Shown here: in pieces, positions 3,210 through 60,933 of the stretch
How the letters are laid out: every line of letters begins with the position of its first letter
Position numbering within the stretch: the stretch's first letter is position 1
Assembly: GCA_012959695.1 (NCBI GenBank)
Contig: DUCS01000006.1
Coordinates: 1-64,000 of the forward strand
Direction: 5' to 3'
DNA: 64,000 bases
Source of the DNA: Cycloclasticus sp.
GTDB taxonomy: Bacteria > Pseudomonadota > Gammaproteobacteria > Methylococcales > Cycloclasticaceae
Made by a program: the position numbers and the translations under genes
The notes under the pieces: generated by a model
The model's input: only the letters and a program-made list of their open reading frames with translations
Database searches by the model: none
Told to the model about the DNA's origin: nothing

Positions 3210-3230
3210 ATTCGTCGAAAAAGCAGCTAA

Positions 3231-9675: not shown

Positions 9676-9676
9676 A

Positions 9677-14173: not shown

Positions 14174-14197
14174 AATTTGAGATAGAGGGGAAGCAAG

Positions 14198-15892: not shown

Positions 15893-15917
15893 ATAACCTA
15901 TTTTAAAAGAGATAATT

Positions 15918-17360: not shown

Positions 17361-17374
17361 AGTAGGGGAATAAA

Positions 17375-20816: not shown

Positions 20817-20853
20817 ATAACGTTATTAAATAGCTAAAAATTAGGAGAAAAAA

Positions 20854-21402: not shown

Positions 21403-21480
21403 ATTTGAGCTAGGTTAGTGTGCTTTTAAGCACCTTCAAGCAAATCTAGCCCTGTTGGGTATAAAAATTTAGGAGAACAC

Positions 21481-38326: not shown

Positions 38327-38334
38327 GGCGCTTT

Positions 38335-39189: not shown

Positions 39190-39220
39190 AGTGGTTTTTT
39201 ATATATGATTAATAGGGTGA

Positions 39221-40372
39221 TTATAAGGGGTTTTGTTCAATAAGCTGCTTGGCAATAATAATACGTTGTAACTCGTTTGTTCCTTCACCAATAGCTAGCA
39301 GAGGGGCATCGCGGTAGTAACGTTCTACGTTAAACTCAGTTGAATAACCATACGCACCGTGAATCCGCAGGGCTTCTGCAGAATTGCTCATGGCGGCTTC
39401 GGTAGCAAATAGTTTTGCCATACCGGCTTCCATATCACAACGTTCACCACGGTCAAACGCGGTTGCTGCCGATTGGACTAATAGTCGAGCCGCTTCAACG
39501 CGTGTGGCCATATCAGCAAGGTATATTTGAATCGATTGATGCTGGCAAATAGGTTTGCCAAAGGTTTTACGTTCTTGCGAATAGGCGATTGAGTCGTTTA
39601 ATGCTGCTGATGCAACACCAATGCCCCGAGCAGCTACATTAATGCGGCCCAAGGCTAAAGCCCCCAACGCATGTTGTAAGCCCTGGCCTTCCTCCAAACC
39701 AATTAGGTTTTCTTTAGGTAAACGGTAATTTTCTAAAAAAAATTCGGCGGTATCAATGCCTTTGTAGCCCAATTTTTTCAGTTTATTGCCCATCACAAAA
39801 CCTTCACCTTTAGGTGCAATAAATAAACTCATGCCCTTATGTGCGGGGTTTGTGGAAGGGTCTGTTTTAACCAATAGGGCAAAGCAGCTGCCGTGTAGGC
39901 TATTGGTAATCCATGTTTTTGAGCCATTTATGATGTAGCTGTCACCGTCCAATGTTGCTGTGGTTTTAACAGCTTGCAAGTCGGTTCCACAGTTGGCTTC
40001 TGTTAACGCTAATGCGCCGCGTATTTCACCCGATGCAAACAGAGGCAACCATTTGTTTTTTTGTTGTTCTGTACCAAAGCGTTGTACCGACATGGCCATA
40101 ATTAGGTGAGAGTTAAACACACCGGTTAATGACATCCATACACAGGCAATGCGTTCGACAATTTTTGCGTAGGTACTAACAGGTAAACCTAAGCCACCGT
40201 ATTGTGGGTCTATAACGGCACCAAACAGACCCATTTCTTTCATCTGTTCAACGATCTCTTCAGGGTATTCATCATCGGCTTCAAGTTGGTGTACTTGAGG
40301 CTTGATTTTAATAAGGAATTTATCGACGGCATCGAGCATTAATTGCTCTGTCTCGGTTTCTTCAGTTGTCAT
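39221..40372 (-). CDS. Acyl-CoA dehydrogenase
   Basis: 383 residues, short/branched-chain type. FAD motifs are ALTEANCGTDLQAVKT and NGSKTWITNSLHG. The likely base is the glutamate of the C-terminal IGEGTNELQRIIIAKQL motif. It is the first gene of the minus-strand operon with MoxR, VWA and SDR, with the regulon operator 19 bases upstream of its start codon, in the promoter shared with the divergent Nudix gene. Confidence 0.92.
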   Translation of the reverse strand: MTTEETETEQLMLDAVDKFLIKIKPQVHQLEADDEYPEEIVEQMKEMGLFGAVIDPQYGGLGLPVSTYAKIVERIACVWMSLTGVFNSHLIMAMSVQRFGTEQQKNKWLPLFASGEIRGALALTEANCGTDLQAVKTTATLDGDSYIINGSKTWITNSLHGSCFALLVKTDPSTNPAHKGMSLFIAPKGEGFVMGNKLKKLGYKGIDTAEFFLENYRLPKENLIGLEEGQGLQHALGALALGRINVAARGIGVASAALNDSIAYSQERKTFGKPICQHQSIQIYLADMATRVEAARLLVQSAATAFDRGERCDMEAGMAKLFATEAAMSNSAEALRIHGAYGYSTEFNVERYYRDAPLLAIGEGTNELQRIIIAKQLIEQNPL

Positions 40373-44188: not shown

Positions 44189-45385
44189 ATGGCATCAAAA
44201 GGGCCGTTATCGGGTATCAAAGTACTAGACCTAAGTTCGCTTATTCTTGGACCGTATATTTCTCAAATTATGGCGGAATGGGGCGCAGACGTTATTAAAG
44301 TAGAAGCGCCTGCTGGGGATATTACTCGCAACATTGCAACAACAAAAACACCTGGCATGTCGGCTATTTTTATGAATCTTAATCATAATAAACGTAGCAT
44401 CGTGTTGGATTTAAAAACACCAGAAGGTCAGGATGTATTAAAACGTTTGGTAAAAAACAGTGATGTGATTGTTCACAATTACCGACCTAGGCCAGCTAAA
44501 AAATTAGGCGTTTCCTACGAACAACTTTCTAGCATTAATCCTAAATTGGTTTCATGCATCGCCGTGGGTTATGGGCGTGATGGCCGATACAGTGAACGGC
44601 CAGCCTACGACGATTTAATTCAGGGCATTTGTGGCATTGCCGATTTAAACGGTCGATATAACGAGTCCCGCCCGGGCTATGTTCCCACTGCATTAGCCGA
44701 TAAAGTGGGTTCATTAATGTCGTTATCGGCAATACTGGCAGCACTTTACGATGCGGAAAAAACAGGTGTTGGTCAAGAGGTTGAAAGCCCCATGTTTGAG
44801 ACGCTGGCTTCCTTTCTATTGCTGGAACATTTAACAGGGCCGGCTTACGAACCACCACTTGGTCCACCAGGCCATTTACGCCAAATGACACCACTACGCC
44901 GCCCCTTTAAAACTAGTGATAGTTATATTTGCGCCTTACCTTATACCGACAAACATTGGCGATCATTGTTTAAGATTATTGATGAAGAAGCGTTAATTAA
45001 TGATCCACGCTTTTCTAGCGTTGCTAAACGGACGGATAATACCATCGAGCTTTATCAGATGATTGAGAATCTGTTACAACAAAACACGACTGAATACTGG
45101 TTAGCCGAGCTGGAATTAGCGGATATACCTTTCGCACCTGTTTCAACGTTAGATGATTTGTTGAAGGACCCGCACCTACATGACGTTGGTTTATTTGAAG
45201 AATATGAACACCCATCAGAAGGGCGTTTACGTCGAGTAAAGTCGCCGGTTACGTTTTCAAAGCCGATGATCAATGAACCGATATGTGCATCTTCCTTGGG
45301 CGAGAACAGTCGTGAAATATTGCAAGAAGCAGGCTATGACGACAACCAAATTGATAGGCTGTTTAAGGCAAGCGTTAGCGCTTAA
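44189..45385 (+). CDS. Family III CoA-transferase (CaiB/BaiF)
   Basis: 398 residues with GIKVLDLSSLILGPYISQIMAEWG, VIKVEAPAGDITRNI and the catalytic aspartate in ALADKVGSLM. The segment AYDDLIQGICGIADLNGR is typical of the family. It is a single plus-strand gene, whose stop codon overlaps the stop of the dioxygenase gene on the other strand. Substrate unknown; it stands between an acyl-CoA dehydrogenase and the atu-like operon, so a branched acid is plausible. Confidence 0.88.
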   Translation: MASKGPLSGIKVLDLSSLILGPYISQIMAEWGADVIKVEAPAGDITRNIATTKTPGMSAIFMNLNHNKRSIVLDLKTPEGQDVLKRLVKNSDVIVHNYRPRPAKKLGVSYEQLSSINPKLVSCIAVGYGRDGRYSERPAYDDLIQGICGIADLNGRYNESRPGYVPTALADKVGSLMSLSAILAALYDAEKTGVGQEVESPMFETLASFLLLEHLTGPAYEPPLGPPGHLRQMTPLRRPFKTSDSYICALPYTDKHWRSLFKIIDEEALINDPRFSSVAKRTDNTIELYQMIENLLQQNTTEYWLAELELADIPFAPVSTLDDLLKDPHLHDVGLFEEYEHPSEGRLRRVKSPVTFSKPMINEPICASSLGENSREILQEAGYDDNQIDRLFKASVSA

Positions 45386-46203
45386 GTTGGTACATCGCCC
45401 TTAATGGATACGCGGTGTAATAATCGACGATAGCCGGTGTAATCATTTATAGGGTAATGATGCGTGGATCGGTTATCCCATAAAACATACATACCTGGTT
45501 GCCATTTAATTCGGCATTGAAACTCTGGTTTTCGCGCGTGTTGGTACAGTTTATTTAATAATGGCTGGCTTTCCTCTTCAGTCCATCCGTCAAAGCAAAG
45601 CGTATGCGCTTCATTTACATACAGTGTCTTTTCACCGGTTTCTGGGTGGGTTCTAACAACGGGGTGAGTATGGGTAAATGTTTTCGTCTTCGTGTCTTTT
45701 GCCAGCCGTGCTTCACGTGTTTTTGATACTGCCGCTTTATTTGACGTATTAATGCCACGTAGCGTTGAAATTTGTTCTTTCACCTCATCCGATAGGGTTT
45801 CATAGGCCGTTCCCATATTGCAAAAGATGGTGTCTCCACCAATAGGGGGTAGCTCAAGTGCGTATAAACTCGCGCCAGCTGCTGGGGCTTTAAGATAGCT
45901 GGTGTCGGAATGCCAAACTCCGCCAAAGTTGATAGTTTCATCCGGCAATTTAAGAACCTCAGCCACATAGGGCATGTTATCCATGCCCTCTAAGAAAGGG
46001 TATTTATCTAATTCACCAAACTGGCGTGTGCAATCGACTTGTTGTTGAGGCGTTAATGATTGTTCAGGAAATATTAGAACTTTGCGCTCTAACCAGACCG
46101 CTTTAAGTGACTTAAGCGTTTCTGTCGGAATAGGTTTTGATAAACCTAAACCACGGATGGTAGAGCCGATATGTGGGCTGATAGGGCCTGCTTTAAAAGA
46201 CAT
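45382..46203 (-). CDS. TauD/TfdA-family Fe(II)/2-oxoglutarate dioxygenase
   Basis: 273 residues. The iron ligands are H98 and D100 in WHSDTSY and H263 near the C-terminus (LLHRVSI), and an arginine in YRRLLHR would bind 2-oxoglutarate. Relatives hydroxylate taurine, alkyl sulfates, 2,4-D and acids such as 4-trimethylaminobutyrate. The gene is 12 bases after the PECR/AtuB-like SDR and shares its operator-controlled promoter, so it likely hydroxylates an intermediate or a carboxylic acid of the atu-like pathway. The exact substrate is not readable. Confidence 0.88.
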   Translation of the reverse strand: MSFKAGPISPHIGSTIRGLGLSKPIPTETLKSLKAVWLERKVLIFPEQSLTPQQQVDCTRQFGELDKYPFLEGMDNMPYVAEVLKLPDETINFGGVWHSDTSYLKAPAAGASLYALELPPIGGDTIFCNMGTAYETLSDEVKEQISTLRGINTSNKAAVSKTREARLAKDTKTKTFTHTHPVVRTHPETGEKTLYVNEAHTLCFDGWTEEESQPLLNKLYQHARKPEFQCRIKWQPGMYVLWDNRSTHHYPINDYTGYRRLLHRVSIKGDVPT

Positions 46204-46215
46204 AAAATGGCGAAA

Positions 46216-47067
46216 CTAAAAGGATGGCGCCTTATACAAAGGAAAGCCATCGTTCGCTTTACAATTATTATGTTCTGGCACAATCCAGTTTTCTTTTGCT
46301 AACGGCAAGCCGCCGTCAACCGCAAGCACTTCACCGGTAATGTACGAGGCACCATCCGATAATAAATAGACGATGGCTGATGATATTTCAGCTTCGGTCG
46401 CTTGGCGCTTCATCGGAATTTGATGTCGACGTTCCCTAAGTTTTTTCTTAAATTCTTCAGGGTAGGTTTCCATACCACTAGAGGCAACCGAGCCTGGAGC
46501 AACAGCGTTGACGCGAACACCTGAATGCACCCATTCCAGTGCAGCGGTTTGGGTAAGATTCACCATGCCCGCGCGGGCAGCTCCTGTGTGCGCCATATGC
46601 GGCATACCGTACGCAGTGGTGGCAACAATATTAACGATAGCGCCGCCGTGTTGTTTCATGTGAAGGTTATACACCTCACGCATCATATAAAAGCCACCGT
46701 TTAGGTTGTTTTTAATTACCGCTTCCCAACCTTTATCGCTGATATCTTCCAATTTAGATGGGAATTGACCGCCGGCATTATTGACTAGGCCATCAATTTT
46801 TCCGTGCTTAGATAAGATGCCATTGAGTGCCGTTTTGATAGCGTTTGAATCCCTGATATCAACGCTATAAAAGTCGCAAACATAGCCGTTATTTTCCAGT
46901 TCAGCAGCAACGTTTTGTAGTTTGTCCAATGAGCGACCGATAAGTATCAGATGAGCCCCAAGAGAGGCCAGTTCATGTGCTGTACATCGACCGATACCAC
47001 TACCACCACCTGTTACGATAATAACCTTATCTTTAAAAAGTGCTTCTTTGTAAATTGATGTGTACAT
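46216..47067 (-). CDS. SDR, AtuB/PECR-like
   Basis: 283 residues with TGGGSGIGRCTA, NNAGGQFPSKLEDIS and the motif HTGAARAGMVNLTQ in place of the usual YxxxK. This variant is seen in peroxisomal trans-2-enoyl-CoA reductase and the citronellol-catabolism dehydrogenases AtuB/AtuG. The long C-terminus (ENWIVPEHNN) also fits that group. It is divergent from the atu-like operon, and the perfect palindromic operator lies 41 bases upstream. In Pseudomonas aeruginosa the atu cluster also carries two such SDRs. Confidence 0.88.
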   Translation of the reverse strand: MYTSIYKEALFKDKVIIVTGGGSGIGRCTAHELASLGAHLILIGRSLDKLQNVAAELENNGYVCDFYSVDIRDSNAIKTALNGILSKHGKIDGLVNNAGGQFPSKLEDISDKGWEAVIKNNLNGGFYMMREVYNLHMKQHGGAIVNIVATTAYGMPHMAHTGAARAGMVNLTQTAALEWVHSGVRVNAVAPGSVASSGMETYPEEFKKKLRERRHQIPMKRQATEAEISSAIVYLLSDGASYITGEVLAVDGGLPLAKENWIVPEHNNCKANDGFPLYKAPSF

Positions 47068-47107
47068 GGTTAATTCCGATGATGGGTTTAATAAATTCCT
47101 TTATAAA

Positions 47108-47121
47108 CTAACAGTTGTTAG
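47108..47121. promoter_or_regulatory. Operator of the catabolic regulon, atu-like divergent promoter
   Basis: CTAACAGTTGTTAG, a perfect 14-base palindrome with core AAC-AGTT-GTT. It is the most symmetric copy of the site and sits between the SDR/dioxygenase unit and the atu-like operon. Confidence 0.7.
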
Positions 47122-47181
47122 ATTGAATAAATTAAGTTTATACTTAACGATAAAGAATATCCACCTTGGGGGTTAGTCACA

Positions 47182-48342
47182 GTGCTATTTAGTCAAGATC
47201 ACGAGATGTTGCGTGAAGCAACCGCGAAGTTCGTTGAACGGGAAATAAACCCTTATGTTGATGAATGGGAAGACGCAGGTATTTTCCCTGCGCACGAGTT
47301 ATTTAAAAAAATGGGCGACGCTGGGTTTCTTGGTATTGGACGTGATGAAAAATGGGGCGGTCTCGGGCTCGATTATTCATACGTGGTTGTGTTTGCCGAA
47401 GAAATTGGACGTATTAAGTGCTCCGGCATTTCTACAGCCATTGGTGTGCAAACAGATATGTGCACGCCTGCCTTAGCCAATTTTGGTAGCGATGAATTAA
47501 AACGTAAGTACTTGGTTCCGGCGATTACAGGTGAGTCGGTCGGTTGTATTGGTGTGAGTGAAGAGGGCGCTGGTTCGGATGTTGCCTCGATTAAAACAAA
47601 TGCCAAGCGCGTTGGTGATGAATACATTATCAATGGCGGGAAAATGTGGATTACCACATCAACGCAAGCAGATTGGGTATGTTTGTTGTGTAACACCAGT
47701 GAAGAAAATGGCCCGCATAAAAACAAATCTCTAATCATTGTACCGCTTGATACTAAAGGCGTAACACGCGGCAAAAGCTTAAAAAAATTGGGCGCGCATA
47801 GTTCAGACACAGCACCGCTTTATTTTGATGATGTGCATGTACCAGTCGGCAATTTAATTGGCGAAGAGGGTAAGGGTTTTATTTATCAAATGAAGCAGTT
47901 TCAAGAAGAGCGACTGTTTGTTATGTCTAAATATTTAAGTCAAGTACAAGACGCAGTGGATATCACCATCGACTACACCAAACAGCGTAAAGCCTTTGGC
48001 AAACCGCTAATCGCTAACCAAGAAATTTATTTTAAATTAGCAGAAATGCAAACAGATATTCAGTCTGTTAGAGCGCTTATTTATCACGCTTGTGAAAAGT
48101 ATATTAATGGTGAAGATGTTGATATGCTCACCTCAATGGCTAAATTTAAAGTAGGTGCTCTCGGTCAGACCATTCCATCAGCCTGTCTCCAATATTGGGG
48201 CGGCCAAGGTTTTATGTGGGATAACCTAATTAGCCGAATTTTCCGCGATACACGCCTCTGCTCAATAGGGGGTGGTGCCAATGAAGTGATGTTAGAAATC
48301 ATCTCAAAACGCATGGGTATCCATCCAACCTCTTTAAAATAA
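47182..48342 (+). CDS. Acyl-CoA dehydrogenase, AtuD-like position
   Basis: 386 residues. The FAD region is GVSEEGAGSDVASIKT and NGGKMWITTSTQA. The likely base is a glutamate in QFQEERLFVMS, and the C-terminus reads IGGGANEVMLEIISKRMG, as in citronellyl-CoA and long-chain-type dehydrogenases. The start is GTG with TTGGGGG upstream. It is the first gene of the operon with the carboxylase beta subunit. The expected job is introducing the double bond in a 3-methyl-branched acyl-CoA before carboxylation. Confidence 0.9.
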   Translation: MLFSQDHEMLREATAKFVEREINPYVDEWEDAGIFPAHELFKKMGDAGFLGIGRDEKWGGLGLDYSYVVVFAEEIGRIKCSGISTAIGVQTDMCTPALANFGSDELKRKYLVPAITGESVGCIGVSEEGAGSDVASIKTNAKRVGDEYIINGGKMWITTSTQADWVCLLCNTSEENGPHKNKSLIIVPLDTKGVTRGKSLKKLGAHSSDTAPLYFDDVHVPVGNLIGEEGKGFIYQMKQFQEERLFVMSKYLSQVQDAVDITIDYTKQRKAFGKPLIANQEIYFKLAEMQTDIQSVRALIYHACEKYINGEDVDMLTSMAKFKVGALGQTIPSACLQYWGGQGFMWDNLISRIFRDTRLCSIGGGANEVMLEIISKRMGIHPTSLK

Positions 48343-48351
48343 GTAAACGTT

Positions 48352-49971
48352 ATGGCCATTATTCAAAGTAAAGTTAATCAGCAAAGCGAAGCCTATCAAA
48401 AAAATCGTGAGGAGTTACTTGCGCTTATTGATGAGGTCACATTGCTAGAACAAAAAGTACATGCTGCGTCAAATAGAAAGCGTGAATTATTTAAAAAAAG
48501 AGGGCAGTTGCTACCGCGTAACCGCTTGGCTTTATTGCTTGATCCTGGTGCAAGTTTTATTGAGCTCAGTACCTTAGCGGGTTTAGGCCAATATGATGAC
48601 GATGGCAAAGAAGACGTATTTGGTGCAGGCATTATTGTTGGCATTGGCTACATCGAAAACACCCGTTGTATGATTTGTATTAATGATGCGGCAATTAAAG
48701 CGGGTACTAATATGCCGCAAGCCTATTACAAGGTGCGCCGTGCTCAAGAGATCGCAGCATCAGCCAAATTACCGTTTATTTGTTTAGTACAAAGCGGTGG
48801 TGGCAACCTGTTTTTGCAGCATTTAGGTTTTAACCGTGCAGGGCATCGTTTTATGAGTCAAGCGCATGCTTCAGCTGCGGGCATTCCACAAATTACATTA
48901 GTACACGGCGCCTCAACCGCAGGTGGTGCTTATATACCCGGTATGTCCGATTATGTGGTGATGGTGCGCGATAAAGCACGGGCATATTTGGCCGGTCCAC
49001 CGTTGCTTAAAGCAGCAACGGGCGAGGTTGCCGAAGAGGAAGAATTAGGTGGCGCAGAGATGCACGCAAGACAATCAGGTTTGGCCGAGTACTTAGCTGA
49101 AGACGATGCTGACGCGATTGAAATAACCCGCGAAGTTGTTAAAAGCTTGGCTTGGGGCGATCGTATTCCTCATACACACGAGAAAAGCTTTAAGCCACCG
49201 CGCTACGATATAGATGAATTATGTGGGATAGTGCCAGCCGATTATCGCAAGCCGTATGACTGCCGTGAAATTATTGCACGGCTTATCGATGACTCTGATT
49301 TTGTTGATTTTAAACCTAATTATGATTCATTTACGGTCTGCGGGTTTGCAGAAATTGAAGGTCAGGCCTGTGGGTTTATTGGTAACAATGGCCCTATTAC
49401 AAATAGTGGTGCGGGTAAAGCAACACAGTTTATTCAGCTATGTTGCCAAGCAGGCAAACCCATTATATTTCTTCAAAACACAACTGGCTTTATTGTCGGT
49501 GTGGAACATGAGCAGGCCGGTATGATTAAAAACGGTGCCAAGCTGATTCAAGCGGTATCGAATGCGACGGTTCCTCGTATCACCTTAAACGTTGGTGGCG
49601 CGTTTGGTGCGGGAAACTATGCTATGTCGGGACTTTCTTTTGAACCGGACTTCTTATTTGCTTGGCCGACCAATCGCTTAGCGATGATGGGTGGAGAGCA
49701 AGCAGCAACGGTGATGTCGATTGTTTACGAGAACAAACAAAAAGCGAATGATCGTCCCATTGATGAGGCATTTTTAGACAAACAGTCTAAAGAAATTGTT
49801 GATTATTATGCGGATGCTTCATCGGCTTTATATTGCACCTCTCAAGTTTGGGATGAAGGGATTATTGACCCGCGTAAAAGTCGCCGGTTATTAGCTGAGT
49901 TACTGGATATTTGCATGAAAGGTCGTCAAACGCAATTGGACTCAAATACTTTCGGTGTTGCAAGAATCTAA
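48352..49971 (+). CDS. atuC: Acyl-CoA carboxylase beta subunit, geranyl-CoA/methylcrotonyl-CoA type
   Basis: The carboxyltransferase subunit of a biotin-dependent carboxylase (539 residues). The N-domain has RGQLLPRNRLALLLDPGASFIEL-type sequence, split by ALAGLGQYDDDGK-like insert, and GASTAGGAYIPGMSDY. The C-domain has NNGPITNSGAGKATQF, VGVEHEQAGMIKNGAK and MGGEQAATVMS. The N-terminal pattern (GQLLPRNRL, DDDGK) is nearer AtuC (geranyl-CoA carboxylase) than LiuB, as I recall them. The alpha subunit is encoded two genes downstream. It carboxylates the gamma-methyl of a 3-methyl-2-enoyl-CoA; chain length is not readable here. Confidence 0.88.
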   Translation: MAIIQSKVNQQSEAYQKNREELLALIDEVTLLEQKVHAASNRKRELFKKRGQLLPRNRLALLLDPGASFIELSTLAGLGQYDDDGKEDVFGAGIIVGIGYIENTRCMICINDAAIKAGTNMPQAYYKVRRAQEIAASAKLPFICLVQSGGGNLFLQHLGFNRAGHRFMSQAHASAAGIPQITLVHGASTAGGAYIPGMSDYVVMVRDKARAYLAGPPLLKAATGEVAEEEELGGAEMHARQSGLAEYLAEDDADAIEITREVVKSLAWGDRIPHTHEKSFKPPRYDIDELCGIVPADYRKPYDCREIIARLIDDSDFVDFKPNYDSFTVCGFAEIEGQACGFIGNNGPITNSGAGKATQFIQLCCQAGKPIIFLQNTTGFIVGVEHEQAGMIKNGAKLIQAVSNATVPRITLNVGGAFGAGNYAMSGLSFEPDFLFAWPTNRLAMMGGEQAATVMSIVYENKQKANDRPIDEAFLDKQSKEIVDYYADASSALYCTSQVWDEGIIDPRKSRRLLAELLDICMKGRQTQLDSNTFGVARI

Positions 49972-49972
49972 T

Positions 49973-50791
49973 ATGCTGACATTACCGACAACGCAGACCT
50001 TATTGCTAGAGCATTCAAAGGGGCGACTTTATATTACCTTTAATCGCCCAGAAAGCCGCAATGCAATGAACAACAAAATGGTTCAAGAGTTACACGACTT
50101 GGCTGATTTTTTAGCGAAAACCTCACTCATTAGGGTAGTGATATTACGCGGATCAGAGGGGAATTTTTGCGCCGGTGGTGATATTAAAGAACGCAAAACA
50201 CAAACAGATACGGCTGTTGTTGGAACAGACCCGGCACGCGAACGTAATATTCGTTCAGGTAACTTGTTTAATAAGTTTTGGAATTTGCCGCAAACCTTGA
50301 TTGTTGTTGTCGAAGGCGCAGCCATGGGTGGTGGCTTTGGATTCGCATGTTTGGCCGACTTAACCTTGGTGCATACGCAAGCCAAAATGGGCATGCCTGA
50401 AACGACACTGGGTATTGCGCCAGCGCAAATTGCACCGTATGTGGTGAATCGTATTGGCTTGTCTAAAGCCAAACAAATGGCGCTGACTGGGCAAAAAATC
50501 AGTGGTGAGGATGCGTATCGGTTGGGTCTTGCTCATTACTGCGCAGAATCAAATAAGGCACTAGAAGAGTTGCTGGAGTCAGTTCTTGACTCCGTCGAAC
50601 GTTGCGGACCGAAAGCGAGTGCAGCGACAAAAAAAATCATGCACCAAGCGGTGAAACTGATAAATGAGCAGACGATTGATTTTGCTGCTGAGGTATTTTC
50701 AGAATTAAATAAACAGCAAGAGGGGCGCGAAGGACATCGTGCTTTTGTGGAAAAAAGAAAACCCAATTGGCTAGTAGACTCAGGTGAATAA
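49973..50791 (+). CDS. atuE: Enoyl-CoA hydratase, AtuE/LiuC-like
   Basis: A crotonase of about 272 residues. The oxyanion segments are NFCAGGDIKERK and EGAAMGGGFGFACLADL, with PETTLGIAPAQIAPYVVNR supplying a catalytic glutamate. In atu and liu operons this enzyme hydrates the glutaconyl-CoA made by the carboxylase. I start at the ATG one base after the carboxylase stop (TAATATG); a TTG six codons earlier overlaps it. The stop shares one base with the alpha-subunit start, so translation of all three carboxylase-module genes is coupled. Confidence 0.87.
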   Translation: MLTLPTTQTLLLEHSKGRLYITFNRPESRNAMNNKMVQELHDLADFLAKTSLIRVVILRGSEGNFCAGGDIKERKTQTDTAVVGTDPARERNIRSGNLFNKFWNLPQTLIVVVEGAAMGGGFGFACLADLTLVHTQAKMGMPETTLGIAPAQIAPYVVNRIGLSKAKQMALTGQKISGEDAYRLGLAHYCAESNKALEELLESVLDSVERCGPKASAATKKIMHQAVKLINEQTIDFAAEVFSELNKQQEGREGHRAFVEKRKPNWLVDSGE

Positions 50792-52761
50792 TGAATATAT
50801 TTAATACAATTTTGATTGCAAACCGTGGTGAAATTGCGGTGCGGGTTATTAAAACGGCTAAGAAAATGGGTTATCACACGGTGGCTGTCTACAGTGATGC
50901 AGATGCCGGTTCTTTACACGTGAGTCTTGCCGATACAGCGGTTTGCATTGGTGGCACATCGGCGGATCAGTCTTATTTGGATATAGATAAAATTTTACAC
51001 GCAGCTGCTCGCTCGAATGCAGGTGCCATTCATCCGGGATATGGTTTTTTATCTGAGTCTACAGCGTTTGCTGAACGTTGTGAGCAAGCTGGCATTACCT
51101 TCATTGGACCGTCTGCGCGGGCCATTTCGTTGATGGGTAATAAAACCATTGCGCGTCAACACATGGTTGATGCAGCCGTACCCTTGGTGCCAGGTTACGA
51201 TGGTGATTCTAACGACGACAGTGTGTTACAAAAAGAAGCTGAACGTATTGGCTACCCAGTGATGGTTAAAGCCGCAGCAGGTGGTGGTGGTCGTGGTATT
51301 CGGTTAGTGAGAGAAGCGGCTAAGTTGGTGGCGGAAATTGCGTCAGCAAGAGGCGAGGCACTGAGTAGTTTTGGTTCCGATGAGCTGTTGCTTGAAAAGT
51401 GTATTGAACAGGCACGACACATTGAAATTCAAGTATTTGCAGACCAAATGGGTCATACGGTTTACTTAGGTGAACGTGATTGTTCCATGCAGCGTCGCAA
51501 CCAAAAAGTTATTGAAGAGTCGCCTGCTCCGCAGATGACTGACGCGTTACGCCAAAAAATGGGTGAAGCAGCGGTTGAAGCAGCTAAATCAGTTAATTAT
51601 GTGGGTGCGGGGACCGTTGAATTTTTGGTTACCCAGTCGGACGAGTTTTATTTTTTAGAAATGAATACGCGCTTGCAAGTAGAGCACCCGGTTACTGAGC
51701 TGGTCACAGGCTTAGACTTAGTCGAATGGCAGCTAAGGGTCGCAGCGGGTGAGCCATTACCGCTACAACAACATGAGATCAGCCTTACCGGGCATGCGAT
51801 TGAAGTGCGTTTGTACGCCGAAGATTGCGATAACGGTTTTACGCCACAAACAGGTACGATTTTAGAATGGGTCAAGCCAACGGGTGAGGGCGTTAGAGTT
51901 GATGAAGGCATCAGCAAAGGGCAAGAGGTCAGCCCTTATTATGACTCGATGCTGGCAAAACTTATCACTTATGGTAGTACCCGTGATGAAGCGTTGCGTC
52001 GTCTAAAGCATGCGTTGACGCAGACCGTATTATTGGGTTTGCCAAGCAACAAACAGTTTTTATTAAGACTATTAGCGGATCCAACTTTTGTCGAGGGAAA
52101 AGCCACCACGCGGCATATAGAAGAGAATATCTTAGTGCAACAAGAACTATCTGAAGCGGCAAATGTAAGTCAGGATAGTTGGGCTTTGGCTGCTGTTCTA
52201 TTATCACGCACCGTGGGCGCAAGTGGTTGGCGTAGCACAGGCACGTTGCGTTGGCCTGTTCGCTTAAAGCAGGGTGAGCAAACACGTGATTTTTTTGTCG
52301 CCCAAGATAGCAATCAATACTGCGTGGAAGACGATGAAGCGAACAGCCTGACATTAACGATATTAAAAGAATCCAGTGAACATAAGGGTCAAATGCTTGT
52401 TTTATCGAATGATATGCAGCAAGCGGTCAACGTCGCGTTTGGACAACAACAGATCCTTTACGTTGATAATGGCAGCGAGACATTGAACTTTCAAAAAATA
52501 TCATTTTCTGAAAAAAAGGCAGAGGAAGAACTCGGTGCAAACCTCGTTGCGCCGATGAGCGGCCGTATCGCAGAGGTTAAGGTTAGCATCGGTCAAAGTG
52601 TCAAAAAAGGCGATTTATTAATTGTGTTGGAGTCGATGAAAATGTTTCAAGAATTAACCGCAACGCAAGCCGGTGTTGTGAGTGAAATTTACGTTACTGA
52701 AGACACTCAAGTAGATGTTGGCGTGCCGTTAATTGATATTGAGCAAGAGGAAAAAACATGA
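50791..52761 (+). CDS. atuF: Acyl-CoA carboxylase alpha subunit (biotin carboxylase plus BCCP)
   Basis: 656 residues: biotin carboxylase N-domain (LIANRGEIAVRVIKTAKKMG), ATP-grasp with KAAAGGGGRGIRLVR, the HIEIQVFADQMG, ERDCSMQRRNQKVIEE and EMNTRLQVEHPVTE motifs, a linker domain, and a C-terminal biotinyl domain with K617 in ESMKM. Length and layout match AtuF and LiuD. It supplies carboxybiotin to the beta subunit encoded upstream. Its stop overlaps the AtuA start (ATGA). Confidence 0.92.
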   Translation: MNIFNTILIANRGEIAVRVIKTAKKMGYHTVAVYSDADAGSLHVSLADTAVCIGGTSADQSYLDIDKILHAAARSNAGAIHPGYGFLSESTAFAERCEQAGITFIGPSARAISLMGNKTIARQHMVDAAVPLVPGYDGDSNDDSVLQKEAERIGYPVMVKAAAGGGGRGIRLVREAAKLVAEIASARGEALSSFGSDELLLEKCIEQARHIEIQVFADQMGHTVYLGERDCSMQRRNQKVIEESPAPQMTDALRQKMGEAAVEAAKSVNYVGAGTVEFLVTQSDEFYFLEMNTRLQVEHPVTELVTGLDLVEWQLRVAAGEPLPLQQHEISLTGHAIEVRLYAEDCDNGFTPQTGTILEWVKPTGEGVRVDEGISKGQEVSPYYDSMLAKLITYGSTRDEALRRLKHALTQTVLLGLPSNKQFLLRLLADPTFVEGKATTRHIEENILVQQELSEAANVSQDSWALAAVLLSRTVGASGWRSTGTLRWPVRLKQGEQTRDFFVAQDSNQYCVEDDEANSLTLTILKESSEHKGQMLVLSNDMQQAVNVAFGQQQILYVDNGSETLNFQKISFSEKKAEEELGANLVAPMSGRIAEVKVSIGQSVKKGDLLIVLESMKMFQELTATQAGVVSEIYVTEDTQVDVGVPLIDIEQEEKT

Positions 52762-54545
52762 GAAAGATTAGAATAGGTGGTGCGTCAGGCTATTGGGGTG
52801 ATAGTGCCTACGCCACGCAACAGATACTAGAAAAAGGAAAAGTTGATTATTTGGTGTACGACTATTTAGCAGAAGTCACGATGTCGCTGCTTGCTAATGC
52901 AAGATCAAAATCTGATCAGTTGGGTTATGCAACAGACTTTGTTCAACAAATCTTAAAACCCAATTTAAAAAGCATCGCCGAACAAGATGTGAAAGTAGTG
53001 GCAAATGCTGGCGGCGTTAACTTGCCAGCATGCCAAAAAGCTATTCAAGCCATTTTGGATGAACAAGGCATTAAATTGAAAGTTGGCGTGGTCAGTGGAG
53101 ATAATTTATTACCAAGAGCGGATGAGTTCAGGGCCGATGGTGTCACTGAGATGACCAGTGGTGATGCTTTTCCTGACAAGTTGGCAAGCATAAATTCTTA
53201 CCTTGGCGCATTTCCTGTTGCAGCTGCGCTAGATGCAGGTGCTGACATTGTTATTACGGGTCGCGTTGTTGATTCTGCCACGACACTTGGCGTTCTTATA
53301 CATGAATACAAATGGGGCTTAGATGATTACGACAAATTATCGATGGGGTCTTTGGCCGGGCATTTAATTGAATGTGGCTGCCAAATTACCGGTGGTAATT
53401 TTACTGATTGGCGTGATACCAGTGATGGCTGGGCAGACATGGGTTACCCCATTGTTGAATGTGAACAGAATGGCGAATTCGTTGTTACAAAACCAGACAA
53501 CACCGGCGGGCTTGTTTCTCCGCTCACCATTTCCGAACAATTGATTTATGAAATTGGCGATCCGCAGGCCTATTACTTACCGGATGTGGTGTGTGACTTT
53601 GCCTCCGTTACTTTGCATGAGGAATCAAACAATAGGGTGTTAGTCCGTGGTGCCAAAGGTTATCCAGCAACTGATCAATACAAAGTGTCTGCCACCTATT
53701 TAGATGGGTATCGTGCGACCTATACACAGTTAATTTCTGGGTTCGATGTAGTCGAAAAAACGCAAATCACTGCAGAAAGAATATTAGAGCGTTGCAAAAA
53801 ACAATTTGCAGACCTGGATTATGGGGATTTTAGGCAAACATCAACAAACCTGTTAGGCGCTAATGCCTTATGGAATAAAGATATTTTTCAAACGCCTGAT
53901 AATCTACTGGAAGTGGTCTTGCGCATATCTGTTCATCATGACAAACGCGAAGCCGTGGCCTTATTTTCTCGAGAAGTAATGGGGGTTATTTTAAACATGA
54001 CCGGCGGGCGTTGTGCAGCTGGTGCAGCCGGCAGGCCAAAAGTATCGCCCGTCATTAATCTATACTCATTTTTATTAAACAAATCCAAAGTCACCGCGAT
54101 GGTTGATGTGGATGGGCAAGCAGTTTCATTCCAATCTACAGAAGGTGAAACATTTGATTACAATCTTATTAAAAGGCAAGAAGCACCCTTAGTATCACCT
54201 GATAACCGACAGACTCGCCAAGTGCAATTAATCGAACTGGCTGTCGCTCGTAGTGGTGATAAAGGTGATTTTGCCAATATAGGCGTAATTGCTCGTAAAC
54301 CCGAATACATGCAATACATTGCCGAAGCAGTGACTGAAAGCTCTATTGCAAACTGGTTCTCTCACATATTAGGTGGGCGGGTTGAACGCTTTTACTTACC
54401 CGGCATTAACGCGCTTAATTTCCTAATGTACGACGCGCTGGGTGGTGGTGGCGTGGGCTCAATGAATATTGACGTACAAGGCAAAACCTACGCCCAACAA
54501 GTGTTGATGATGCCCATCGATATCCCTGTTAATTTATTAGATTAA
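52758..54545 (+). CDS. atuA: AtuA-family acyclic terpene utilisation protein
   Basis: 595 residues: an N-terminal DUF1446/AtuA domain (IGGASGYWGDS, VANAGGVNLPAC, VVSGDNLLPR, ITGRVVDSATT; about 1-450) fused to the C-terminal AtuA-like ferredoxin-fold domain (about 490-590; ARSGDKGDFANIGVIAR, GGGGVGSMNID). AtuA is required for growth on citronellol in Pseudomonas, but its reaction is not known. Its presence is the best marker that this operon belongs to the terpene/branched-chain atu type rather than plain leucine (liu) breakdown. It overlaps the carboxylase alpha stop by four bases. Confidence 0.92.
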   Translation: MRKIRIGGASGYWGDSAYATQQILEKGKVDYLVYDYLAEVTMSLLANARSKSDQLGYATDFVQQILKPNLKSIAEQDVKVVANAGGVNLPACQKAIQAILDEQGIKLKVGVVSGDNLLPRADEFRADGVTEMTSGDAFPDKLASINSYLGAFPVAAALDAGADIVITGRVVDSATTLGVLIHEYKWGLDDYDKLSMGSLAGHLIECGCQITGGNFTDWRDTSDGWADMGYPIVECEQNGEFVVTKPDNTGGLVSPLTISEQLIYEIGDPQAYYLPDVVCDFASVTLHEESNNRVLVRGAKGYPATDQYKVSATYLDGYRATYTQLISGFDVVEKTQITAERILERCKKQFADLDYGDFRQTSTNLLGANALWNKDIFQTPDNLLEVVLRISVHHDKREAVALFSREVMGVILNMTGGRCAAGAAGRPKVSPVINLYSFLLNKSKVTAMVDVDGQAVSFQSTEGETFDYNLIKRQEAPLVSPDNRQTRQVQLIELAVARSGDKGDFANIGVIARKPEYMQYIAEAVTESSIANWFSHILGGRVERFYLPGINALNFLMYDALGGGGVGSMNIDVQGKTYAQQVLMMPIDIPVNLLD

Positions 54546-54565
54546 AACCGAGTAAGGAGTTACTA

Positions 54566-56188
54566 ATGTCGATTGCTAAGCCTATTTTGTCCTCACAAAG
54601 AATTGAAACAATGCAAAGTACGGGGCATTGGCAAGGAAAAACAATACTTGATTTTTTTGATGCCAATGTTGCAAAGCAAGGCGATAAAACAGCGGTTATC
54701 GCCTACGGTAAGGAAAATAACACAAGGGTTTCAAAAACATACCAAGAGTTGGCTGATTTATCTGACAGGTTCGCAGCTGGCTTGCTCAAACAAGGTATAA
54801 AAAAAGGCGATGTGGTGTCTTATCAATTACCCAACTGGTGGGAATTTGTTGTTGTTTATCTAGCTTGTATGCGTGTTGGTGCTATTAGTAACCCACTAAT
54901 GCCCATCTTTAGAGAGCAAGAGCTGTCATTCATGCTTAGCTTTGCTGAATCAAAGTTAGTCATTGGTCCGGACACCTTCAAAAAATTCAACCACGCTGAA
55001 TTGCTTAACAAACTTCAGTCAGACTTACCGTCTCTTGAGGCGGTTTGGAGTATCGGCGACAACGGCCTTGATGCATACATGGTTGAACAGGTGACTGAAC
55101 AAGACAGGGCGACATTTGAAGCGGTTAAATTAACACCGAATGATGTGTTCCTCATCATGTACACATCGGGTACTACAGGCGCACCGAAAGGGGTCATGCA
55201 TACCTCAAATACCCACGAGTATTCAGCGCGTAAGTTTATTGAACGCAGCGAATTAACCAGTGAAGAGCTGATACTGATGGGCTCACCTACAGCACATATG
55301 ACCGGTTTAATGTACGGTGTGTCTGTTCCCATTATGCTCGGTTCAACGACTGTACTTTTAGATCAATGGGATGCTGACCTTGCCTGGAAAATTATTCGCG
55401 ATGAACAAATCGCCTTTACCATGGGTGCAACGCCATTCTTAGCTGATTTAAGCGACTCAAGTGCTGTTGATGACTGTAATCACGATAAATTTAGACTCTT
55501 CGCCTGTGGTGGCGCACCGGTACCGCCAGCGCTAGGGCGTCGTGCTTCAGCAAGGCTCAATGTTAATTTAGTGACCGTGTGGGGAATGACAGAAATGTCT
55601 GCCGTTACCACCACATTACTGACTGATTCAGAAGAAAAAGTATTTGAAACCGATGGTTGTCCATATGATGGTACGGAAGTGAGGGTGATAGACCAACAAG
55701 ATGCAGCTGTAGAAAACGGTACCGAAGGGCGGTTACAAACGCGTGGTGCGGGCAACTTTGTAGGCTATTTAAAACGCCCAGAAGCGCACGATACTGACGA
55801 AGAAGGTTGGTTTGAAACTGGCGATTTAGCCAAAATCGTTCATGAACATTACATTCGTATTACAGGTCGTTCAAAAGACATCATCATCCGAGGCGGGGAG
55901 AACATTCCAGTGGCCGTGGTGGAAAATTTTTTATATCGCCACGATGCCCTTCAGGATGTTGCTATTGTCGCCAAAGCAGATGAACGATTAGGTGAGCGGG
56001 CTTGTTGTTACATAACATTAAGGCCACAGCAAAGTTTTGATTTAGAGACATTAAAAACTTACCTTTCGGATGAAGGTCTTAGCAAAAACTATTGGCCTGA
56101 ATATCTAGAAATACTAGATGCAATGCCAAGGACAGCAAGCGGTAAAATACAAAAATTTAAATTAAGAGACATGGCTAATAACGGTTAG
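54566..56188 (+). CDS. Acyl-CoA synthetase, AtuH-like position
   Basis: An ANL ligase of 540 residues, similar to cyclohexanecarboxylate-CoA and 2,3-dihydroxybenzoate-type ligases in its layout. Motifs are YTSGTTGAPKGVMHT, WGMTEMSA, TGRSKDIIIRGGENIPVAVVE, and the catalytic lysine in RTASGKIQKFKLRDM. An AAGGAG site precedes the start. In the atu cluster a CoA ligase activates citronellate/geranate; here an acid of similar or alicyclic type is likely. Confidence 0.89.
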   Translation: MSIAKPILSSQRIETMQSTGHWQGKTILDFFDANVAKQGDKTAVIAYGKENNTRVSKTYQELADLSDRFAAGLLKQGIKKGDVVSYQLPNWWEFVVVYLACMRVGAISNPLMPIFREQELSFMLSFAESKLVIGPDTFKKFNHAELLNKLQSDLPSLEAVWSIGDNGLDAYMVEQVTEQDRATFEAVKLTPNDVFLIMYTSGTTGAPKGVMHTSNTHEYSARKFIERSELTSEELILMGSPTAHMTGLMYGVSVPIMLGSTTVLLDQWDADLAWKIIRDEQIAFTMGATPFLADLSDSSAVDDCNHDKFRLFACGGAPVPPALGRRASARLNVNLVTVWGMTEMSAVTTTLLTDSEEKVFETDGCPYDGTEVRVIDQQDAAVENGTEGRLQTRGAGNFVGYLKRPEAHDTDEEGWFETGDLAKIVHEHYIRITGRSKDIIIRGGENIPVAVVENFLYRHDALQDVAIVAKADERLGERACCYITLRPQQSFDLETLKTYLSDEGLSKNYWPEYLEILDAMPRTASGKIQKFKLRDMANNG

Positions 56189-56212
56189 CCGATACTCATA
56201 CAGGAGAAGAGA

Positions 56213-57379
56213 ATGAATCCAGCATTATTGAATGACGACGAAAAAATGATCCAAGAAATGGCGCAGCGTTTTGCAAAAGAGCGCCTATATGACGGTTATC
56301 GAGAACGTGCCATCAGCAGTGAATCCACGCTTGACCGTGGGCTTATTAAAGAAATGGGTGACCTTGGCCTGTTAGCGCCGAATATTCCCGAAGAGTATGG
56401 CGGTATTGGTGCGTCTAGTTTTGTCAATGGTTTGATTTGTGAGGCTATTGCGTATGGTGATTTTAACCTTAGCTATTTGAATATGACTAATCCATTAATG
56501 AGCGATGTCATCATGCGTTTCGGCACAGAGGAAATGAAACATGAAATTCTACCTAAAATGGCATCGGGTGATCTAATTTCAGCCTTAGGCTTAACAGAAC
56601 CACGGGGTGGTTCAGATGCAGGTAATCTCATTTTAAAAGCCGAGAAAACGGATACCGGCTATATCTTGAATGGTGAAAAGACATCAATGAGTTACGCAAC
56701 CCAAGCCGATAATGTATTGATGTTTGCAAGAACAGGCACGGTTGAATCTGGCCCTTATGGAGTATCTGCCTTTTTGGTCGATTTAAACTTGCCAGGTATC
56801 TCTCGCACAGAATTCGATGATATTGGTACCAAGCCAGTTGGTCGAGGCTCTGTATTTTTTGATAATGTCGAAATTCCAGCTTCCGCCTTATTGGGTAACG
56901 AAAATGAAGGCTTCACAAAAATCATGGTTGGGTTTGATTTAAGTCGTGTATTAATAGCACTTGAATGCGTAGGAACTGCTCAAGTTTCCGTAGATGAGAC
57001 ATGGGAATATGTTCAACAACGTGAAGCCTTTGGTACACCGTTGGTTAAATTCCAAGGCGTCTCATTCCCCTTAGCTGAGCACGAAAGCATGTTGGAAGTA
57101 TTGCGTGCTCTGGCCTATCAAACACTTAGGTTACGCGATGGCGGCCACAAGCATACTAAAGAGGCCGCTATTTTAAAGTGGATGGCGCCAAAATATGCCA
57201 CAGAAATTTTACAAAACTGTTTACTACTAAGCGGGCACTATGGCTACACAACCGATTTGCCACATCAACAAAGAATGCTAGACGTACTCGGTCTACAAAT
57301 TGGCGACGGCACGGCGCAAATTATGAAAACAGTTATCTCTAGAGAAAAAGTCGGCAAAATAGCCCTACAGTACAAATAA
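56213..57379 (+). CDS. Acyl-CoA dehydrogenase with Asp in the base motif
   Basis: 388 residues. FAD motifs are GLTEPRGGSDAGNL and NGEKTSMSYATQA. The C-terminal base motif, normally EGT, reads IGDGTAQIMK, so aspartate replaces glutamate, and the alternative position reads DLSRVLIALE without the NER glutamate. An aspartate base has been reported for cyclohexane-carboxyl-CoA-type dehydrogenases. It follows a ligase with a similar leaning, so an alicyclic acyl-CoA substrate is a reasonable guess. Confidence 0.88.
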   Translation: MNPALLNDDEKMIQEMAQRFAKERLYDGYRERAISSESTLDRGLIKEMGDLGLLAPNIPEEYGGIGASSFVNGLICEAIAYGDFNLSYLNMTNPLMSDVIMRFGTEEMKHEILPKMASGDLISALGLTEPRGGSDAGNLILKAEKTDTGYILNGEKTSMSYATQADNVLMFARTGTVESGPYGVSAFLVDLNLPGISRTEFDDIGTKPVGRGSVFFDNVEIPASALLGNENEGFTKIMVGFDLSRVLIALECVGTAQVSVDETWEYVQQREAFGTPLVKFQGVSFPLAEHESMLEVLRALAYQTLRLRDGGHKHTKEAAILKWMAPKYATEILQNCLLLSGHYGYTTDLPHQQRMLDVLGLQIGDGTAQIMKTVISREKVGKIALQYK

Positions 57380-57414
57380 ACGTTACTATTTTTTCATAAG
57401 AAAAAGGAGTTGAT

Positions 57415-57729
57415 ATGTCAGTCATAAGATCAAGTGCGATGGAATATGTAGAGTCCGGAATAGAAGGTATTTCCCAATGTGAGCTGTGGGATAACGGCAC
57501 CAATGGAGGCACCTCACTCGTGCGTCTTCTTGCAGGTGCATACTTCCCTAACCATAACCACCCTGGTTGGGAGCAAGCCTATATTTTATCGGGCAAAGTT
57601 GCCGTTGGCACAGAAGTGGTTGAAAAAGGCGATTATCTATTTGCAAAAGCCGGTGATATTCATGACGCTAAAGCAATAGAAGATACTGAGATTTTAGCCT
57701 TTACTGAAAAAGGCGTTGAGCTAATATAA
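57415..57729 (+). CDS. Small cupin protein
   Basis: 104 residues forming one cupin barrel. Metal-binding residues are visible in PNHNHPGWEQAYILSGKV (two histidines and a glutamate), with a later histidine in GDIHDAKA. It resembles ChrR-like and dihydroxyacetophenone-dioxygenase-like cupins, but this is too general to assign a reaction. It is the last intact gene of the atu-like operon, with AAGGAG upstream. Confidence 0.8.
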   Translation: MSVIRSSAMEYVESGIEGISQCELWDNGTNGGTSLVRLLAGAYFPNHNHPGWEQAYILSGKVAVGTEVVEKGDYLFAKAGDIHDAKAIEDTEILAFTEKGVELI

Positions 57730-59727: not shown

Positions 59728-60933
59728 TTATGACTGGTTTTCAATCACCATTGCAATACCTTGCCCTACACCAATGCACATAGATATAAGTGCGTAACGT
59801 CCGCCTGTTTTCTGTAATTGACGTGCGGCTGTTAAGGCTATTCGCGCACCGGATGCGCCTAATGGGTGACCTACTGCAATAGCGCCACCATTTGGGTTAA
59901 TACGTGGGTCATCAGCAGCAATGCCCAATTGCTTTAAATCACCCAGTACTTGTGCGGCAAAGGCTTCGTTGACCTCAATAACATCCATTTGTTCAATGCT
60001 TAGGTTAAGCCTTTTAAGCAATTTTTGACAAGCTGGAACGGGGCCAAGGCCCATAATGGTTGGCTCGATGCCGGCGGTTGCGCCACCTAGTACGCGTGCC
60101 ATGGGTTTTAATTGGTGGTTTTCGCCGAAGGCTCGACTGCCCACTAAAACAGCGGCAGCACCATCGTTAATGCCGGATGCGTTAGCAGCGGTAACAACCC
60201 CATCTTCAAATAAGGGGCGCATGGTTGACATCTTATCGAGTGTTGCTTGAGGGCGAGGGTGCTCATCGGTGTTGACGACAATGTCTGGCTTGCCACGTCT
60301 TTGTGGGATGTTAATCGGTATTATTTCTTCGTCAAAGAAGCCTTTATCGCTTGCATTAGCCCATTTTTGCTGTGAGTTATAAGCGAATACATCACATTGT
60401 TCTCGGCTAATATTTTCCTGCTTTGCAACGTTATCTGCTGTTTCCGGCATGGCTTCGTGTCCGTATTGCTTACCCATAATCGGATTAGGGAAGCGTACGC
60501 CAATCGCGCTGTCATAAACTGTTATATCTTTGCTGAAAGCAGTATTACTTTTATTGAACGTTAAGGGTGCTCGGGTCATACTTTCCACGCCACCAGCGAT
60601 GAAAACATCACCTTCACCACAGGTTATGGCACGAGATGCATCGATAATAGCTGCTAAGCTACTGCCACATAACCTATTAATCGTTTGCCCACTCACTTGA
60701 ACAGGCAGACCAGCTAATAAAGTAGCATAACGGGCAATGTTGCGGCTATCTTCTCCAGACTGACACGCGCAGCCTAAAACTACATCATCTATCAATAAGG
60801 GATCGAATTTATTCCGTTCAACCAGTGCTTTAATTACAGCTGCCGCCAAATCATCTGGCCGCACGTTTGCAAGCGAGCTACAGTATTTTCCAAAAGCGGT
60901 TCTTGCACCATCATAGATATAAGCATCTAACAT
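59728..60933 (-). CDS. Acetyl-CoA acyltransferase (thiolase)
   Basis: A true thiolase of 401 residues: nucleophile C89 (RLCGSSLAA), VNEAFAAQ, the histidine of [10 protein letters not shown] and C386 in CIGVGQG. The layout ([31 protein letters not shown]) resembles beta-ketoadipyl-CoA and FadA-type thiolases, so cleavage of 3-oxoacyl-CoA or 3-oxoadipyl-CoA is likely. It is 13 bases after FadH and shares its operator-controlled promoter. With acetoacetyl-CoA as substrate it would complete the acetoacetate route. Confidence 0.93.

Follow-up and report, generated by a model that had tools for sequence, protein, structure and literature searches.

A tertiary β-carbon blocks β-oxidation, and the Atu pathway passes this obstacle by desaturating the coenzyme A (CoA) thioester, carboxylating the γ carbon, hydrating the product and splitting it beside the new carboxylate. 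Cyclohexylacetate is the product of even-chain alkylcyclohexanes and cyclohexanecarboxylate that of odd-chain ones. Cycloclasticus is a marine degrader of aromatics and short alkanes. Here we describe a cluster of Atu-type genes in Cycloclasticus sp. (assembly GCA_012959695.1), located in a 64-kb window that forms the start of the 160.7-kb contig DUCS01000006.1 (C6) of a draft genome (1.7 Mb, 80% complete). We propose, giving it about an even chance, that this cluster is an Atu-type carboxylation and lyase module reused for a β-branched, probably alicyclic, acyl-CoA.

The cluster resembles the Atu pathway in its homologs of AtuA-F and its CoA ligase, in a carboxyltransferase of the geranyl-CoA carboxylase (GCC) type and in the same reaction logic. 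It differs in having an AliA-like ligase, an AliB-like second dehydrogenase, a carboxyltransferase from a separate clade and a palindrome in common with an alicyclic-acid operon. As described in the available parts of PMC12016498 and PMC11659651, anaerobic naphthalene degradation in N47 employs a tertiary-β-carbon dehydrogenase, a hydratase, an AtuA-like lyase and a thiolase (ThnO, ThnL, ThnQS and ThnV, in that order) and is thus alike by description. However, the ring carboxyl is already present there from naphthalene, whereas here a biotin carboxylase would add it, and ThnQ and ThnS are two genes whereas AtuA is one protein here. With the bad-ali pathway of R. palustris and Aromatoleum CIB the locus has in common an AliB-hydratase-BadI-PimC/D-like operon, found on the same contig with the same palindrome. 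Moreover, the cluster ligase and second dehydrogenase belong to the AliA and AliB families, yet fall below the equivalog cut-offs. The bad-ali pathway itself runs without the carboxylase, AtuE and AtuA that the window cluster has. A search of a PMC library found no account of Cycloclasticus with geranyl-CoA carboxylase, or of that enzyme in cyclohexyl or hydrocarbon breakdown, and among the matches listed no title dealt with an alicyclic-acid pathway in Cycloclasticus.

The identity of the carboxyltransferase bears on the size of the substrate. Its best solved relative is the GCC β subunit 5ikl, at 619 bits, against 452 bits for the methylcrotonyl-CoA carboxylase (MCC) β subunit 3u9r of Pseudomonas. 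From residue 4 onward it aligns with the GCC N-terminus, an N-terminal extension absent from propionyl-CoA carboxylase (PCC). According to the available part of Jurado et al. (PMC4673880), MCC carries a Phe preceded by a three-residue insertion, and GCC a Gly (position 162 in PaGCC) with no insertion. An alignment of 25 rows shows Ala163 at this selectivity position of the window protein and no insertion before it. The same combination is found in the rows of Cycloclasticus, L028, Polycyclovorans and Panacagrimonas; two further genomes (G356 and G466) carry Gly at this site and differ locally by one residue, and the canonical-type rows have Gly. The tree splits the GCC side from the MCC side at 100/100 and puts the window protein in a 12-row clade of its own (100/100; Ala in 10 rows, Gly in 2) beside the canonical GCC rows. 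The program warned of long branches, none of which lies in this clade. A first-pass annotation of this DNA had judged the N-terminus closer to GCC than to MCC, and the bit scores, tree and pocket site agree with it. It had also named placement with the leucine enzymes LiuB/LiuD as the outcome that would count against it; tree and pocket residues were checked for this and it was not found.

A second leucine-type (MCC) operon, which would have the same enzyme superfamily and step order, is accordingly most improbable. The Liu pathway draws on the same superfamily, but the window carboxyltransferase differs from LiuB/LiuD in having Ala rather than Phe, no insertion and a position on the GCC side of the 100/100 split. 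On these grounds LiuB/LiuD identity is ruled out. Furthermore, a separate MCC-type carboxyltransferase with both Phe and insertion lies at ~111 kb of the contig; this pair of features marks the second and third carboxyltransferases of C6 alike. Judged from sequence, it is fairly secure that the window protein is of GCC type and forms a distinct subfamily with its own clade, from which a substrate larger than methylcrotonyl-CoA appears likely. The annotation had suggested a longer branched acyl-CoA. The larger size is likely to hold; a longer acyclic compound is not favoured, an alicyclic acyl-CoA being at least as likely because of the AliA/AliB-like companions, the hydrocarbon-degrading host and the palindrome in common with the cyclohexanecarboxylate operon.

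The other enzymes carry both an Atu and an alicyclic signature. The hydratase has as its best solved relative isohexenylglutaconyl-CoA hydratase (AtuE; 4zu2, 232 bits). Dehydrogenase 1 shares 53-57% identity with dehydrogenases from canonical-type atu clusters in other genomes and matches them in a Glu in helix G (QEER) and a Gly replacing Tyr (IGGG). The available part of PMC11659651 ties Gly at that site to a tertiary β-carbon in isovaleryl-CoA dehydrogenase (IVD) and ThnO, a rule, as given there, that cannot tell dehydrogenase 1 from dehydrogenase 2, Gly being present in the two alike. The AliB of the same contig and dehydrogenase 2 are 51% identical, and both contain the motif QIGDGTAQI. 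The ligase is the only strong AliA-like ligase found in its own draft genome.

These likenesses also admit a rearranged Atu operon for acyclic isoprenoids (citronellate/geranate, or phytanate-like 3-methyl acids from algae or petroleum isoprenoids), an explanation that we regard as possible. Here the AtuD-C-E-F-A homologs would cut the β-methyl branch off as acetate, and the remainder would pass through β-oxidation and the Liu/MCC route on the same contig. The core genes share 41-60% identity with canonical atu clusters, with AtuE and GCC as the nearest solved relatives, and a 2,4-dienoyl-CoA reductase-like gene adjoins the cluster. The contig further holds the Liu-type MCC at ~111 kb (Phe and insertion) with an IVD-like dehydrogenase and a thiolase, and on plasmids of marine Sulfitobacter, AtuA and carboxylases are grouped with dienoyl-CoA reductase and an AliB-like dehydrogenase. 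Against this stand the separate clade and different pocket signature of the carboxyltransferase and the AliA/AliB-like companions in the cluster, together with the palindrome and the co-occurrence with AliB and BadI described below.

The lyase step had been placed 40 kb away in the first-pass annotation, and this part of it does not hold. An HMG-CoA (3-hydroxy-3-methylglutaryl-CoA) lyase gene does lie at 8776-9696 and passes its family cut-off. However, it is single-copy in 16/18 genomes of the genus set (our own genome and 17 others placed in the same genus), whether or not they have the cluster, and this includes 7 of the 8 without AtuA. We therefore rejected it as the pathway lyase; it is best explained as the lyase of the leucine pathway. 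From the present analysis the pathway lyase is most likely AtuA, which lies within the operon. This protein joins an AtuA domain (PF07287) to a ferredoxin-like domain (PF23544), the domain set of the family. The lyase role of the family is taken from the available parts of PMC4847356 and PMC12016498, and the cited review, in the part available, compares the AtuA-type lyase reaction with LiuE. A search of the PDB with AtuA gave no solved relative, with nothing better than E 0.5.

Moreover, the cluster has a regulatory signature in common with genes for alicyclic acids. Aligning the promoters upstream of dehydrogenase 1 from 7 genomes revealed a 14-bp palindrome, CTAAC-N4-GTTAG. It has one exact match in the window, against 0.03 expected from shuffles preserving dinucleotides (as did all the palindrome shuffles but the next), and two on the whole contig, in the cluster promoter and the AliB promoter, against 0.15 expected from a shuffle preserving base composition only. 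A scan of 46 loci (794 kb) found 23 copies, every one within the Cycloclasticus-type subset (36 loci and 635 kb, with two loci of G014), where ten control palindromes of equal composition had 0-2 copies each. The palindrome is present in the cluster promoters of 8/8 same-genus clusters covered and in 8/8 AliB promoters covered. Twelve of the 23 copies stand beside an MmgE/PrpD-like gene facing AliB, or facing PimC/hydratase where AliB is missing; in G019 the side opposite the MmgE/PrpD-like gene lies beyond the scanned piece. The remaining three copies lie at other sites, of which one immediately precedes a TetR-type gene in G035. Because gene context was taken from the longest reading frame, 3 matches are assigned to the interior of a dehydrogenase gene or to an overlap with one. 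The candidate regulator is the TetR-type gene at C6:92251-92850, and the module may be viewed as a candidate recruit to an alicyclic-acid regulon.

The operon that has the palindrome in common with the cluster lies at ~94.4-100.2 kb of C6, ~40 kb from the cluster, and encodes AliB, a hydratase, BadI and PimC/PimD-like dehydrogenases, an arrangement for cyclohexanecarboxylate. Equivalog cut-offs were 792.3 bits for AliA (TIGR03208), 575.35 for AliB (TIGR03207), 467.6 for BadI, 624 for PimC and 653 for PimD; AliB (590.8 bits) and BadI (478 bits) of the contig exceed theirs. In G023, G039 and G047 both gene groups are found on one contig with largely the same intervening genes. Similarly, on a 15.6-kb contig of a sponge symbiont, BadI and PimC/PimD-like genes lie a few kb from the cluster end with a few small genes between.

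The two gene groups also tend to occur together, although kinship was left uncorrected in these tests and incomplete genomes were scored as absences. BadI over its cut-off occurs in 8/18 genus genomes, namely 8/11 with the AliA-like ligase versus 0/7 without it (Fisher p = 0.004). Across 369 genomes sampled from the class, members of the carboxyltransferase clade (at least 67% identity) and over-cut-off BadI turn up in the same 3 genomes of 2 genera; when the BadI limit is relaxed (12 genomes, 8 genera), the genus-level chance figure is 8e-4. Outside the genus, 4/5 clade genomes have over-cut-off BadI (G014, G356, G466 and Panacagrimonas), where G356 and G466 are one genus and are counted in the class sample as well. 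In contrast, BadI passes its cut-off in 0/4 genomes with a canonical-type carboxyltransferase, which argues against the acyclic isoprenoid explanation.

The link with BadI could also be accounted for by a route for 2-methylcyclohexanecarboxylate. The AliB-like dehydrogenase would form 2-methylcyclohex-1-enecarboxyl-CoA, the methyl group would be carboxylated and the product hydrated, and AtuA would release acetate and 2-oxocyclohexanecarboxyl-CoA, the substrate of BadI. Such a route would explain the AliB-like dehydrogenase in the operon as well. However, G019 keeps the core, AtuD-like enzyme included, whereas the AliB-like enzyme, the AliA-like ligase and BadI are all missing from it. In that genome the core cannot rely on any of these three, and we consider this route unlikely. 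The same genome has the five-gene core with a PimC ortholog ~31 kb off and no AliA-like ligase, AliB or BadI, a gene content that fits a cyclohexylacetyl-CoA route better than one requiring BadI.

For an alicyclic substrate, which we infer with about evenly balanced confidence and for which cyclohexylacetyl-CoA is the candidate, the steps might run as follows. The AliA-like ligase would make the CoA thioester, and the AtuD-like dehydrogenase (for some substrates the AliB-like one) would yield an α,β-unsaturated thioester at a β-carbon unable to become a ketone. The GCC-type biotin carboxylase would put CO2 on the γ carbon, and the AtuE-like hydratase would form a tertiary alcohol. AtuA would then split the C-C bond beside the new carboxylate, leaving a 3-oxoacyl-CoA for the adjacent thiolase, itself a candidate. 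Applied to cyclohexylacetyl-CoA, these steps lead to the exact compound that ThnQ/ThnS reportedly cleave, and to pimeloyl-CoA after thiolysis. A more specific proposal, which we advance only tentatively, is thus an aerobic, carboxylation-driven ring opening: CO2 would be attached to the cyclohexylideneacetyl-CoA ring, and once the product was hydrated AtuA would cut that ring to give 3-oxoazeloyl-CoA and hence pimeloyl-CoA.

Several observations weigh against an alicyclic role. Among characterised enzymes, those nearest to the core proteins take acyclic isoprenoid CoAs as substrates, and the ThnQ/ThnS work is cited as unpublished. The ligase (TIGR03208, 624 bits) and dehydrogenase 2 (TIGR03207, 466 bits) have AliA and AliB as top families and stay under the cut-offs, as do the PimC-like (476 bits) and PimD-like (394 bits) proteins; the AliA cut-off is reached in none of the 18 genus genomes. 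The predicted fold of AtuA (mean predicted local distance difference test score, pLDDT, 56) is too poor for use. Within the genus AtuA alone is weakly associated with BadI (counts 6, 4, 2 and 6; p = 0.19). The core occurs without over-cut-off BadI in G013, G019 and G056, and G013, which has the cluster and lacks the PimC ortholog too, fits poorly; Polycyclovorans likewise has the carboxyltransferase clade and no over-cut-off BadI. In four loci of the clade that lie beyond the genus set (L028, L035, L045 and L046), the cluster promoter contains no palindrome even with two mismatches allowed, such that shared control is seen within the genus only. Lastly, the window holds 7 palindromes at up to one mismatch (the perfect copy included) against 1.32 expected, and one-mismatch copies precede several other acyl-CoA operons of the contig, including the HMG-CoA lyase operon and the thiolase/dienoyl-CoA reductase promoter. 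The regulon may therefore be broad rather than specific to alicyclic acids.

The gene set is more than a chance assembly: across an order sample, 8 of 200 genomes besides our own also encode the carboxyltransferase (E <= 1e-150; 9/201 in all). Seven of these eight belong to the same genus and the eighth to another family. Synteny was mapped in the 7 same-genus loci carrying it. Here the core of dehydrogenase 1, carboxyltransferase, hydratase, biotin carboxylase and AtuA is present in 7/7, and ligase, dehydrogenase 2 and SDR (short-chain dehydrogenase/reductase) each in 6/7, G019 being without them. A scan of titled genome contigs by carboxyltransferase alignment matched 11 loci. Five are Cycloclasticus, with matches of 80-82% and one from a poecilosclerid sponge symbiont, and the others include Polycyclovorans and Panacagrimonas.

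Homologs of AtuA, AtuC, AtuD, AtuE and AtuF thus occur together, the gene set of an Atu operon, and the core genes overlap or almost touch in an operon-like manner, flanked by TauD on one side and a small cupin on the other (Table 1). Every gene named in the first-pass annotation is an open reading frame where it was placed, with TauD just beyond the start given for the cluster. Its AtuB-like and AtuD-like labels are borne out by 53% and 54-57% identity to the counterparts in the canonical-order atu cluster of G225. It was also right that the order departs from Pseudomonas, being D-C-E-F-A with a divergent SDR here and atuABCDEFGH in the available part of PMC4847356. The companions that it listed, TauD, cupin and a second dehydrogenase, are present; TauD and cupin were nonetheless rejected as core parts, the former being found in 4/7 mapped clusters and the latter having an ortholog in one other mapped region only.

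Table 1. Features of the Atu-type cluster and its surroundings in the window.
Feature	Position	Strand	Evidence and conservation
TauD/TfdA-type 2-oxoglutarate dioxygenase	45382..46203	-	PF02668 199 bits; in 4/7 mapped same-genus clusters; peripheral
SDR oxidoreductase, AtuB-like	46216..47067	-	PF13561; in 6/7 mapped clusters
Operator-like palindrome CTAACAGTTGTTAG	47108..47121		In divergent SDR/dehydrogenase promoter
Acyl-CoA dehydrogenase 1, AtuD-like	47182..48342	+	Pfam; residue alignment
Carboxyltransferase β, GCC-type, AtuC-like	48352..49971	+	PF01039; 5ikl 619 bits; tree and motif
Enoyl-CoA hydratase, AtuE-like	49955..50791	+	4zu2, 232 bits
Biotin carboxylase with biotin carrier domain (α subunit, AtuF-like)	50791..52761	+	PF00289, PF02786, PF02785, PF00364
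AtuA, AtuA domain fused to ferredoxin-like domain	52758..54545	+	PF07287 464 bits, PF23544 93 bits
Acyl-CoA ligase, AliA-like	54566..56188	+	TIGR03208 624 bits
Acyl-CoA dehydrogenase 2, AliB-like	56213..57379	+	TIGR03207 466 bits
Small cupin protein	57415..57729	+	PF12973; peripheral, conservation patchy
Thiolase	59728..60933	-	PF00108/PF02803; ortholog near cluster in 6/7 mapped same-genus genomes
2,4-dienoyl-CoA reductase-like flavoenzyme	60947..62977	-	PF00724 and PF07992; syntenic with thiolase in 6/7 mapped genomes

If the alicyclic reading is true, several Cycloclasticus lineages would break down alicyclic (naphthenic) acids by a regulated route, with an Atu module passing the tertiary β-carbon. 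The ring opening, if true, would add use of cyclohexylacetate to the BadI route for cyclohexanecarboxylate, both under one regulator. The distinct GCC-like clade would gain a testable function, the case for AtuA as a lyase acting generally on carboxylated tertiary alcohols would be strengthened, and oil seeps and spills could be surveyed with marker genes for cycloalkane breakdown.

Other carboxylases and related loci were encountered along the way. The PDB chain 9tps, labelled as a PCC β subunit, has Phe and the insertion and groups with Pseudomonas MCC (91/97); perhaps it is mislabelled, or else the enzyme is unusual. At ~102-108.7 kb C6 carries, immediately downstream of its PimC/D-like genes, a third carboxylase, a PaaK-like ligase and a lipid-transfer/thiolase-like protein, possibly a further carboxylation pathway. 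This carboxylase (Phe and insertion) is on a long separate branch together with a Sulfitobacter plasmid enzyme, and its region is kept in G039 and partly in G047. The Sulfitobacter plasmid islands themselves (L051 and L052) hold AtuA, in two copies in one of them, several biotin carboxylases, HMG-CoA lyase and a citryl-CoA-lyase-like gene; the plasmid AliB-like dehydrogenase is 61% identical to dehydrogenase 2 of the window. In G039 the carboxyltransferase gene has an in-frame TAG (L018, ~9979-9983), which points to gene decay or to a mistake in the assembly.

Within the window, an α/β hydrolase, a flavin-containing monooxygenase (FMO)-like enzyme, an aldehyde dehydrogenase and an alcohol dehydrogenase stand in a row at 13265-18427 and resemble a cyclic-ketone/lactone route. 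The FMO-like enzyme is related to the Baeyer-Villiger lactone synthase family NF045818 (272 bits; cut-off 1100), and an ortholog of the aldehyde dehydrogenase lies near the Atu-like cluster in G056, G019 and G031. Hydantoinase-B-like, acetone-carboxylase-γ-like and caprolactamase/acetophenone-carboxylase-like genes follow in a row at 18603-23649, with a one-mismatch palindrome ahead of them. At 37106-40372 a CoxE-type VWA protein and an AAA ATPase are found beside an acyl-CoA dehydrogenase, and weakly related genes adjoin the cluster in G047. An S24 peptidase (UmuD-like) and a Y-family polymerase (IMS) at 2613-4502 form an SOS mutagenesis set. Beyond the window, C6:68663-69124 (L023:4663-5124) encodes a 153-aa AmoC/PmoC-like fragment, perhaps the remnant of a particulate hydrocarbon monooxygenase.

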